From assembly GCA_002256765.1 (NCBI GenBank), contig NCHJ01000008.1, forward strand, positions 1-46,895: 46,895 bases of DNA, written 5' to 3'. The DNA is from Bacteroidetes bacterium 24-39-8. GTDB lineage: Bacteria > Bacteroidota > Bacteroidia > Chitinophagales > Chitinophagaceae. A program made the translations under genes and the position numbers. The notes beneath the pieces are model-generated. The model had not been told where the DNA came from. It ran no database searches and saw only the letters and a program-made list of their open reading frames with translations. Numbering within the stretch: the first letter of the stretch is position 1; every line of letters starts with the position of its first letter. Below, in pieces: positions 5,475-8,270 of this stretch.

Positions 5475-7322
5475 ATGAACAGACAAGAAGAACTTCTACA
5501 AGACGTAGTGATCAAGTTCGCCGGCGATAGCGGCGATGGAATGCAATTGACAGGTCAACAGTTCACCAACAATACCGCCATGTTAGGTATTGATTTGGCT
5601 ACTTTTCCAGATTTTCCAGCTGAGATCAGGGCCCCAATAGGTACTGTACCCGGTGTATCTGGTTTCCAGTTGCACTTTTCTAGTGAAAGAATTTATACAC
5701 CAGGTGACAACTGTGATGTATTAGTAGCTATGAATGCTGCCGCCCTAAAAGTGAATTTAAAGAGCATCAAAAAAGGCGGAAAGATCATTGCCAATATTGA
5801 TGGTTTTGATAGCAAAAACCTGCGCTTGGCCAACTATCCAGAAGGGGTAAACCCATTGGAAGACGGTAGCTTGGATGGTTTTGTATTAACCAAGGTAGAC
5901 GTAACCAAATTAACCCGCGAATCTTTGAAAGATTTTACGGACTTGGGCGTGAAAGAGCGTGACCGCGCTAAGAACATGTTTGTACTGGGTCTAATTTACT
6001 GGATGTATAATCGCAGTTTGGAAACTACCATTGAATTCTTGAAAGAGAAATTTGGTAAGAAACCCACCATTTTTGAATCCAACGTGAAAGTTTTGAAAGC
6101 TGGATACAACTATGGCGATACTACTGAAACTTTTACCACCCGTTATAAGGTTGAAAAAGCCAAAATGGTTCCTGGTGTTTATAGAAGCATCATGGGTAAC
6201 CAAGCATTGAGCTATGGTTTGGTGGCGGCTTCTGAAAAAAGTGGCTTGCCCATTTTCTTAGGAACCTATCCTATTACTCCAGCTACTGATATTCTACATG
6301 AATTGAGCAAATACAAATCATTTGGTGTTCGCACTTTCCAAGCAGAAGATGAGATTGCAGGTATTGGTGCTGCTATTGGTGCCAGCTATGGTGGTGCATT
6401 GGGTATTACTACTACTTCTGGTCCTGGTATGGCTTTGAAAACAGAAGCCATGGGTCTGGCTATGATGCTAGAAATTCCTTTGGTGATTGTAAATATTCAA
6501 CGCGGTGGACCATCAACGGGTTTGCCTACCAAAACAGAACAGTCTGATTTAATGCAGGCTTATTATGGTAGAAATGGTGAAGCACCTATTCCAATTATTG
6601 CTTCTTCTACGCCAAGCGATTGTTTTGACGTAGCATTTGAAGCAGTGCGTATTGCGGTGCAACACATGACTCCAGTGATTTTGCTGAGCGATGGATATAT
6701 TGCCAATGGTGCTGAGCCTTGGAAATTCCCTAAAGCAGCAGATTTGCCAAAGATTGAAGTAAGCTTCAAGGAAACCAAAGACGAAGGAGACGATAAATAC
6801 AAACCATACAAGCGTGACGAAAAATTAGTTAGACCTTGGGCCGTTCCTGGCACACCAGGTTTGGAGCACCGTATTGGTGGTTTGGAAAAGCAGGATGTAA
6901 CTGGTAACGTAAACTACGAACCAGAGAACCACCAGCACATGATCAATGTTCGTCAAGCCAAAGTAGACAAGATTGCAGATTATATTCCATTACAAACTAT
7001 TGACAGCGGAGCCGATAAAGGCAAGGTCTTGATCCTTGGTTGGGGTTCTACTTATGGTGCTATCAAAAGCGCCTGTCATGAACTGCAAGCAGAAGGTCAT
7101 GCCGTGAGTCACGCGCATATTCGCTACCTGCGTCCTTTCCCTAAAAACTTGGGAGAGATCTTGAAAAACTTTGACAAAGTATTGGTACCTGAAATCAATA
7201 ATGGCCAGCTGGTAAGAATTATCCGCGATGCCTATTTTGTTGACGCCATTCCTTATAACAAAGTGATGGGTATTCCTATCACCAAGTCTGAATTGGTAGA
7301 TCAGGTGCATAAACTCTTATAG
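5475..7322 (+). CDS. korA: 2-oxoacid:ferredoxin oxidoreductase, alpha subunit (2-oxoglutarate type)
   Basis: A 615-residue fused gamma/alpha subunit of a 2-oxoacid:ferredoxin oxidoreductase, which makes acyl-CoA and reduced ferredoxin from a 2-oxoacid and CoA. The N-terminal gamma domain carries VIKFAGDSGDGMQLTG at about residues 12-27. The alpha domain starts near residue 235 with GNQALSYGLVAASE and includes GTYPITPATDILHEL and the motif PSTGLPTKTEQSDL, a hallmark of the 2-oxoglutarate (KorA) branch. The C-terminal Rossmann-like domain near 515 has VLILGWGSTYGAI. The catalytic ThDP and Fe-S binding beta subunit (KorB, about 340 residues) should be next door but is not in the window. The gene is closed by a strong terminator 26 bases after the stop, so it is transcribed alone. 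Confidence 0.9.
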   Translation: MNRQEELLQDVVIKFAGDSGDGMQLTGQQFTNNTAMLGIDLATFPDFPAEIRAPIGTVPGVSGFQLHFSSERIYTPGDNCDVLVAMNAAALKVNLKSIKKGGKIIANIDGFDSKNLRLANYPEGVNPLEDGSLDGFVLTKVDVTKLTRESLKDFTDLGVKERDRAKNMFVLGLIYWMYNRSLETTIEFLKEKFGKKPTIFESNVKVLKAGYNYGDTTETFTTRYKVEKAKMVPGVYRSIMGNQALSYGLVAASEKSGLPIFLGTYPITPATDILHELSKYKSFGVRTFQAEDEIAGIGAAIGASYGGALGITTTSGPGMALKTEAMGLAMMLEIPLVIVNIQRGGPSTGLPTKTEQSDLMQAYYGRNGEAPIPIIASSTPSDCFDVAFEAVRIAVQHMTPVILLSDGYIANGAEPWKFPKAADLPKIEVSFKETKDEGDDKYKPYKRDEKLVRPWAVPGTPGLEHRIGGLEKQDVTGNVNYEPENHQHMINVRQAKVDKIADYIPLQTIDSGADKGKVLILGWGSTYGAIKSACHELQAEGHAVSHAHIRYLRPFPKNLGEILKNFDKVLVPEINNGQLVRIIRDAYFVDAIPYNKVMGIPITKSELVDQVHKLL

Positions 7323-7347
7323 CCCTTATACTTGAATACATTCAGCC

Positions 7348-7381
7348 AGAAGCAACTCCTAATAGGGTTGCTTCTTTGTTT
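7348..7381 (+). terminator. Rho-independent terminator of korA
   Basis: Perfect 9-bp arms AGAAGCAAC (7348-7356) and GTTGCTTCT (7367-7375) with an inner CCT/AGG pairing in the loop, followed by TTTGTTTT. It begins 26 bases after the korA stop codon. Confidence 0.85.
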
Positions 7382-7397
7382 TAAAGAAGCGATTGAA

Positions 7398-7416
7398 AAA
7401 TGCTGAATCGGCATTT
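7398..7416 (+). other. Weak hairpin downstream of korA
   Basis: Arms AAATGC (7398-7403) and GCATTT (7411-7416) around a 7-base loop, followed by CATTTTTTG. It could be a back-up terminator. The 10-mer AAATGCTGAA at 7398-7407 recurs at 7639-7648, on the other side of the palindrome array. Confidence 0.35.
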
Positions 7417-7495
7417 CATTTTTTGAAATTTGTTTTTCACTTAACAACCGATTCGGAATAGTAGTTACTTTTTGGATTTTTAAAAAAGGGCTGTT

Positions 7496-7623
7496 TTTAT
7501 ACTTGTTCTAGTATAAAAACGGGGTTTCTATTTTATACTCGTTCTAGTATAAATCCAAAAAGAAATTTATACTTGTTCTAGTATAAAAAAAAGAGGCTCT
7601 ATTTATACTAGTTCTAGTATAAA
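7496..7623. repeat. Array of four 22-bp near-palindromes in a non-coding region
   Basis: Four copies at 7496-7517, 7532-7553, 7566-7587 and 7602-7623. Each has the left arm TTTATACT, a variable ninth base (T, C, T, A), the centre GTT and the right arm CTAGTATAAA. Copy 4 is a perfect inverted repeat except for its two central bases. Start-to-start distances are 36, 34 and 36 bases. The spacers (14, 12 and 14 bases) are unrelated in sequence. No gene overlaps it; the 489-base region between korA and the lipoprotein gene holds this array, the heptamer array and hairpins only. It could be a cluster of operator sites for a dimeric regulator, or a string of RNA hairpins. Spacers are too short for a CRISPR array. 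Confidence 0.9.
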
Positions 7624-7663
7624 AATGGAGGGTTTTTGAAATGCTGAAAAAAAGCATATTGGG

Positions 7664-7770
7664 AAAGTGAAGAAAGTGAAGAGTGAAAAATGAAGAGTGA
7701 AGAGTGAAAAGTGAAGAGTGAAGAATGAAGAGTGAAGAGTGAAGAGTGAAGAGTGAAGAGTGAAGAGTGT
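7664..7770. repeat. Heptamer tandem repeat, unit AGAGTGA
   Basis: About 15 head-to-tail units of seven bases, one of them lengthened to nine. The left units vary (AAAGTGA, AAAATGA, AGAATGA). The five full units from 7729 to 7763 are identical AGAGTGA, with a partly matching AGAGTGT closing the array. The units contain TGA and a 7-base period visits all frames, so the array cannot code. It ends 41 bases before the lipoprotein start codon. Confidence 0.92.
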
Positions 7771-7811
7771 TTGAAATAAATTTTAATTATATTTATTAAA
7801 ATTATCCCTAC

Positions 7812-8270
7812 ATGCTTACCAGAAAAACTTTCGCCTTTGCAAGTGTTTTAGCAATGTTTCTAATTGCTTGTCAGCAACCTGCAACACCGGTTAAGTTACC
7901 CCTAGAAGGAACCTGGCAATTGGTAGCGGCTACCAGTACAGAAAAAGATAGTACCAAGTCCACATTCATCCCAGACCTGAAAATGATCAAGATTATTAAC
8001 GCATCGCATTTTGCGTTTTTCTCTCATGACTTGAATCAGGGTAAAGACAGCCTCAAAGCACAGTTTAGTGCTGGAGGCGGAACCTATGAATTAAAAGACA
8101 GTACTTATACCGAGCATTTGGAATATTTTAATACGCGTCAATGGGAAGGTGGCAATTTCACTTTCACTGTTCGTATTAAAGCAGATACATTAGTTCAAGA
8201 AGGGATTGAAAAAGTAGAGAAGCTGGGCATTGACCATATTATTCGTGAGACCTATGTGAGGATAAAATAA
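7812..8270 (+). CDS. Small lipoprotein with a lipocalin-like domain
   Basis: A 152-residue protein with a short basic N terminus (MLTRKTFAF), a hydrophobic core and a lipobox LIAC that makes Cys20 the likely lipidated residue. The mature part begins with a Gln/Pro/Thr linker and then LEGTWQLVAATS, the opening of small lipocalin-like domains common in Bacteroidota lipoproteins; it is rich in beta-strand patterns and has no catalytic motif. It is probably anchored in the outer membrane or on the cell surface. Ligand and role are unknown. The heptamer array lies just upstream, where its length could alter promoter spacing. No convincing promoter box is seen. Confidence 0.8.
   Translation: MLTRKTFAFASVLAMFLIACQQPATPVKLPLEGTWQLVAATSTEKDSTKSTFIPDLKMIKIINASHFAFFSHDLNQGKDSLKAQFSAGGGTYELKDSTYTEHLEYFNTRQWEGGNFTFTVRIKADTLVQEGIEKVEKLGIDHIIRETYVRIK

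Follow-up and report, generated by a model that had tools for sequence, protein, structure and literature searches.

The array of four short repeats at positions 7496 to 7623 of the window (the whole 46,895-nucleotide stretch of contig NCHJ01000008.1 from Bacteroidetes bacterium 24-39-8 that was analysed) belongs to a genuine family of dispersed, clade-limited arrays with the look of HipB-type operators. Our preferred interpretation, which we consider probable, is that each unit is an operator to which a HipB-like XRE protein binds as a dimer, and that the rows are operator arrays spread in a MITE-like element. Briefly, the unit TATAC-N8-GTATA, with outer TT and AA, would be bound by a HipB-like XRE repressor dimer. 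Several sites in a row would form one operator array, probably with cooperative binding. In relatives, such a row is located immediately ahead of hipBA toxin-antitoxin operons. One small clade has a HipB-like gene lacking an adjacent hipA, with array units beside the gene. Copies of the row, within a small inverted-repeat element resembling a MITE, occupy about 14 or 15 places in the two genomes that were fully counted. The array in the window is one such copy.

The window array consists of four 22-bp near-palindromes, TTTATACT-x-GTTCTAGTATAAA, in which x is T, C, T and A in turn and the spacing is 36, 34 and 36 bp. All are given on the forward strand: unit 1, TTTATACTTGTTCTAGTATAAA, at 7496–7517 (18-bp core 7498–7515); unit 2, TTTATACTCGTTCTAGTATAAA, at 7532–7553 (core 7534–7551); unit 3, again TTTATACTTGTTCTAGTATAAA, at 7566–7587 (core 7568–7585); and unit 4, TTTATACTAGTTCTAGTATAAA, at 7602–7623 (core 7604–7621). 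On rescanning the window with up to three mismatches, those four places alone matched (8 strand hits). No match to the 22-bp unit arose in 100 dinucleotide shuffles of the window. The positions, bases and spacing given by the first-pass annotation are borne out by both tests. Its remark that the spacers share no sequence needs amending: spacers 1 and 3 have terminal TCTATT(T) in common, and the window spacers are still recognisable in orthologous arrays of two other species. The four units are also not the whole element, which extends over approximately 7462–7657. Here, 36-bp ends flank the array and are alike in inverse orientation. The left end (TAGTTACTTTTTGGATTTTTAAAAAAGGGC..., 7462–7497, forward strand) is the inverted partner of the right end (7622–7657, reverse strand), where the match to the shared end is weaker than in other copies. 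Both ends are common to copies from five genomes. As expected of a palindromic element, the predicted RNA fold is one long hairpin (−61.5 kcal/mol, z −9.1). Rfam returned no gathering matches across the window and, of 15 matches up to E 10 at 7300–7830, none was close to the gathering score.

The flanking genes, korA and a lipoprotein gene, keep their first-pass names. By inspection, a terminator-like hairpin with a T-rich tail lies 3' of korA and ahead of the array (7349–7383, forward strand), and is kept in relatives. Right after the element is a heptamer tandem repeat, (GTGAAGA)n, at 7664–7769 (no strand assigned). As far as seen it lies outside the element; it is also found in array-less genus members, and similar repeats flank several other element copies. 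The repeat falls within the ~190 bp separating the end of the array from the lipoprotein gene, the product of which gave lipocalin-like matches only, all below cut-off. The first-pass annotation had suggested a multi-site operator for a dimeric regulator of one of these two genes. A dimeric regulator is the best-supported option, with HipB-like XRE proteins as the candidate family. A role specific to korA or the lipoprotein gene is unsupported, as similar arrays adjoin many unrelated genes. Furthermore, korA has its own terminator-like hairpin and, at a relative's locus (L055), another gene separates korA from the array.

We searched for further copies in the source genome, which is in 212 contigs and 86% complete. 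The core TATACTNGTTCTAGTATA gave 52 hits with up to two mismatches. Two were set aside, one because it was window unit 4 read on the opposite strand and the other because it fell within a long reading frame on contig C211. The remaining 50 units occupy 15 places, as 13 arrays of three to six units and two single units. Thus, the tandem arrangement of a HipB-type operator, with at least three units, is present at 13 of the 15 places. The hundreds of scattered single motifs that, according to the first-pass annotation, would speak against a local array were not what we found. Most units are spaced by 36 bp and some by 34 or 35; two arrays have spacings of 54 to 58 bp.

Exact matches to TTTATACWNGTTCTAGTATAAA in the species-genome collection fall in 31 stretches, all within four MAGs. 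Besides the source genome, the array-bearing MAGs are Chitinophagaceae bacterium BSSC1 (G100), an uncultured Sphingobacteriia bin (G101), Bacteroidetes RE-23may17-862 (G102) and Loc090721-4m_bin-0913 (G103). BSSC1 has 68 units at 14 places. The exact form TTTATACT-N6-AGTATAAA, with a free centre, occurs in 4 of 101 genus genomes: the source genome, G101, G103 (the latter two recognised among the genus genomes, as G138 and G142, by identical contigs and coordinates) and, as a single site, G035. The last was rejected as an array because there is one site only. It lies at 1501–1522 of locus L226, just ahead of the start of another, putatively XRE-like gene. That gene is followed by a putative RES-like gene, both named from their sequences. 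No array was found in the 98 other same-genus genomes searched and, with one mismatch allowed in 100 relatives, only lone stray hits appeared in four others, all outside the genus. Four single matches in viral contigs, three of them in near-identical surroundings, were taken as unrelated. Within the limited collection of literature searched, there was no occurrence of the exact 18-mer, no report of the array family and no mention of the name BSSC1.

Across genomes, the element has a 36-bp end on either side, the second inverted, and between them 1 to 8 TATAC-N8-GTATA units, most at 36-bp intervals. Left ends resemble the reverse complement of right ends. They are ~36 bp long, with consensus TAnTTGTTTTTnGGnnTTTTAAAAAnnGCCnnTTT, and lie directly ahead of the core; in places the ends match loosely (mean column identity 73% after redundancy thinning). 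Some copies have a different left end (L040, L042, L058, L064) and single-unit elements exist (L157, L159, L161). The arms are unchanged but the centre differs in G102 and in part of the G101 arrays, e.g. TATACTCGATATAGTATA. Lone units are inverted inside arrays L056, L066, L079 and L084, where adjacent units and most spacings are unaltered. A second, GC-rich dispersed repeat (~GGGAGGGGTGGCCGAAGGCCGGGGTGGG) was seen near array sites in L121 and L037. A CRISPR was rejected: the spacers, mostly 16–18 bp, are recognisable at orthologous sites and so are not unrelated acquisitions.

Arrays in the source genome often have a counterpart, of 1 to 8 units, at the orthologous place in other species. 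We compared nine such loci (16 pairs), with base classes set on the source-genome copy. In the arms, TATAC and GTATA, 0 of 580 compared bases had changed; the other 50 of the 630 arm bases fell in alignment gaps at missing units, and MAFFT gaps can hide lost units. The TT and AA neighbours of the arms had 3 changes in 232 bases. Corresponding figures are 42 of 464 for unit centres, 133 of 636 (21%) for spacers, 159 of 1081 for element ends and 1257 of 3628 for outside DNA, poorly alignable DNA included. In the five pairs with equal unit number, changes numbered 0 of 190 in arms, 17 of 152 in centres and 31 of 188 in spacers (Fisher p 1e-10, arms vs spacers). For reference, third codon positions of korA differ by 22% between the source genome and L071, and likewise L081. 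Each arm letter is found in at least 163 of 165 distinct units, a uniformity that stems partly from selecting units at up to two mismatches. We conclude from the orthologous comparison that the arms are under constraint. Gene conversion between units appears a poor alternative, because tracts would need to stop exactly at the units.

Arms without a single change offer no compensatory pairs. Outside the arms, pairing exceeded every shuffle only at offset 4, and was below the shuffle mean by more than 2 sd at offsets 3, 6, 9 and 10. An A-A mismatch adjoins the arms in 54 of 165 distinct units. Constant arms, with pairing not kept beyond them, point to sequence recognition, most simply by a dimeric DNA-binding protein. 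Protein binding would keep the arms unchanged.

The published description of E. coli HipB offers a precedent (PMC3376134). HipB binds TATCCN8GGATA, with four cooperative sites in the hipBA promoter. The units described here are likewise 18-bp 5-N8-5 inverted repeats in tandem copies, and HipB is an XRE-family protein like the candidate proposed here. There are also differences. The arms are TATAC/GTATA rather than TATCC/GGATA, although operator letters vary between hipB homologues too. The array step is mostly 36 bp, compared with 28 bp in the E. coli O1O2 oligo (counted from the printed sequence). Finally, the arrays are dispersed in the genome within an element, and no hipA lies beside the gene of the array clade.

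That gene is a small XRE gene adjoining an array on contig C142 of the source genome, with no adjacent hipA. Orthologues are present in 5 of 5 array genomes (67–100% identical to the query). In the rest of the genus (98 genomes), identity does not exceed 51% in the 13 genomes with homologues, and the remaining 85 gave no match at E 0.001. The product is 84 aa long in the source genome and 86 aa in BSSC1. Two orthologues scanned scored 63.4 and 62.8 bits against couple_hipB (NCBIfam TIGR03070), below the curated cut-off of 71.65. By sequence, the best solved structure was HipB(Lp) (8ezt, E 2e-5); the predicted fold was of too low confidence to be informative (mean pLDDT 63.8, two-sequence alignment). 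HipB has a conserved terminal tryptophan (PMC3376134); four of the toxin-less proteins also end in tryptophan, and the fifth has it in the penultimate position. The five genomes gave 9 HipA_C matches, none adjacent to the gene. The next downstream gene, common by synteny, encodes another protein, and two genes found upstream in the source genome are absent in G102. The nearest array units upstream of the gene are at 258 bp in the source genome, 287 in G103, 409 in G100, 145 in G101 and 416 in G102. Since the five array genomes appear to be one clade, a single event could underlie both the co-occurrence of gene and arrays and their adjacency.

The 150 bp upstream of the start codon were scanned at 18 loci: seven loci of the toxin-less orthologue (some genomes twice) and 11 distant homologues. 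The latter, those with retrievable loci among 16 such homologues known, were L198–L206 and two paralogues in array genomes (L211 and L212). A site was the 18-bp TATAC-N8-GTATA form with up to two arm mismatches. All 11 homologues had at least two sites upstream and 9 of 11 had at least three (at most four). In 10 of 11 there was a site pair 34–42 bp apart, and sites were mostly near −100, −60 and −20. Shuffled upstream regions of all 18 loci gave ~0.3 sites per locus. Among 383 control windows upstream of ORFs in BSSC1 samples, two sites were present in 2 and a spaced pair in 0 (Fisher p 1e-19 for two sites, 11/11 vs 2/383; p 5e-19 for the spaced pair, 10/11 vs 0/383). In 435 kb of those samples, the exact form was confined to the inside of one array. 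The arm letters of the homologue sites are partly ascertained, having been chosen by likeness to TATAC/GTATA; the tandem register is unaffected. Upstream of the toxin-less gene, sites were lacking at six of the seven loci, and the seventh had a lone weak one. The array of this gene is further out than the sites of the hipBA operons at −20, −60 and −100.

The couple_hipB cut-off was exceeded by 5 of the 6 homologues scanned, the sixth scoring 67.4 bits. A HipA N-terminal domain was encoded in the next frame for 10 of 10 homologues scanned; for L212 none was found. Judged by these matches, the distant homologues are hipBA antitoxins. Like the arrays, their rows consist of tandem palindromes, of TATAC- or TATAT-N8 type, usually numbering three and set about 40 bp apart. 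They differ in having C at position 6 or T at position 5, and in lying directly ahead of the operon. Operator type, in turn, tracks the type of recognition helix. A GVGLR helix accompanies TATACC (20 sites, 7 loci; C at positions 5 and 6 in 40/40 half-sites). GVALT goes with TATAT (12 sites, 4 loci; 22/24 half-sites), and the toxin-less GVGLH with TATACT or TATACA (26 distinct units; position 6 in 51/52). With three groups only, the match is suggestive and not statistical proof. It is consistent with binding of the units by the toxin-less HipB-like protein, which we infer.

Terminal inverted repeats, several copies and, by inspection, no coding capacity are all features of MITEs, and the ends, copy number and dispersal fit such an element, presumably spread by transposition. 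The first-pass suggestion of mobile-repeat remnants was therefore partly right, since the array lies within a dispersed inverted-repeat element. At the C87 locus, two relatives have other DNA instead of the array and BSSC1 keeps only a right-end remnant; no clean empty site of the element was found. The plan also resembles that of the BOX elements of Streptococcus pneumoniae (PMC3049150). These too are short and intergenic, with variable tandem inner modules between two ends, and are over-represented between convergent genes. The likeness is of plan only; the inner module of the arrays is a protein-site-like palindrome with constant arms. REP/BIME elements with RAYT similarly comprise clustered short extragenic palindromes (PMC3733652). 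However, the five array genomes contain no RAYT/Y1 domain (PF01797, RAYT/IS200, 0 of 5; control search positive in 5 of 14 known genomes) and, by inspection, there is no GTAG or CGTC tag at the unit.

The siting of the arrays bears on what they do. Counting by hand, one per orthologous locus with both neighbours known, we found 8 convergent, 7 same-direction and 2 divergent gene pairs (n = 17; gene calls from an ad hoc ORF finder, frames within heptamer repeats skipped). As background, convergent pairs account for 11 to 14% of gene pairs in BSSC1 samples and for 17 to 18% of those in the window; set against backgrounds between 11 and 17%, the convergent excess has p 0.0002 to 0.004. Few arrays are thus sited like promoter operators, and the convergent siting of 8 of 17 is odd for an operator. 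HigA-like, HigB-like and Gp49/XRE toxin-antitoxin genes adjoin two arrays (L037 5178–5477, L072 6224–6604, L031 5920–6649). Such genes were rejected as defining the arrays at C12 and C97: the orthologous arrays in G102 (L075) and G101 (L085) have other genes, so the toxin-antitoxin genes are probably later arrivals.

A rival reading is a plain MITE- or BOX-like parasite. In that case the inner units would serve the element's own movement, for example as transposase sites, with no host role. Inverted ends, absence of visible coding capacity, many copies, variable unit number and frequent convergent-gene siting all fit. Pneumococcal BOX, RUP and SPRITE also favour convergent genes and have been read as parasitic (PMC3049150). 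We nonetheless consider this unlikely. Array positions are common to species, and the arms stay constant while ends and spacers drift; idle copies should decay throughout. In addition, the unit agrees with the operators that precede hipB homologues, and the one transposase domain searched for, Y1, is absent from all five genomes.

Still less probable, in our estimation, is that the units are operators of another dimeric regulator or architectural protein that prefers TATAC-N8-GTATA. Constant arms without compensatory changes suggest sequence recognition, but by no particular protein. Adjacency to the HipB-like gene amounts to one shared locus, and the lone similar site in G035 precedes a different XRE-like gene. 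Against this stand the comparable tandem rows that precede all 11 hipB homologues examined, and the correspondence between helix and operator. Least credible is that the element acts as transcribed RNA, for example by guarding mRNA 3' ends: the window element folds strongly and about half of the arrays are downstream of two genes, but the small-RNA hairpin chain envisaged by the first-pass annotation finds no compensatory changes, no pairing kept beyond the arms and no Rfam gathering match.

If, as we prefer, the rows are operator arrays for a HipB-like XRE dimer, then they may titrate the protein, bridge distant DNA, insulate genes or repress nearby promoters. In BSSC1, none of the 14 array places is on contigs C1, C3 and C6 (1.495 of 4.337 Mb), a gap with p 0.003 against an even spread, for contigs picked after the result was seen. 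A chromosomal macrodomain was considered and rejected, sampled GC skew giving no clear picture. We suggest, tentatively, that an ex-antitoxin has become a genome-wide DNA-organising or regulatory protein. The toxin would have been lost and the tandem operator kept, then multiplied by the inverted-repeat element. The protein may now bind, bridge or insulate about 15 conserved places.

Antitoxins of type II toxin-antitoxin systems are known chiefly as local self-repressors. Here, an antitoxin-type operator has seemingly spread over the chromosome and then been held constant, and the matching protein has no adjacent toxin. If true, it would offer a testable example from nature of how an antitoxin can become a regulator of wider reach, and of how a repeat can disperse the binding site of a protein. 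The three helix and operator pairs of these related genomes would also make up a small, directly testable specificity code.
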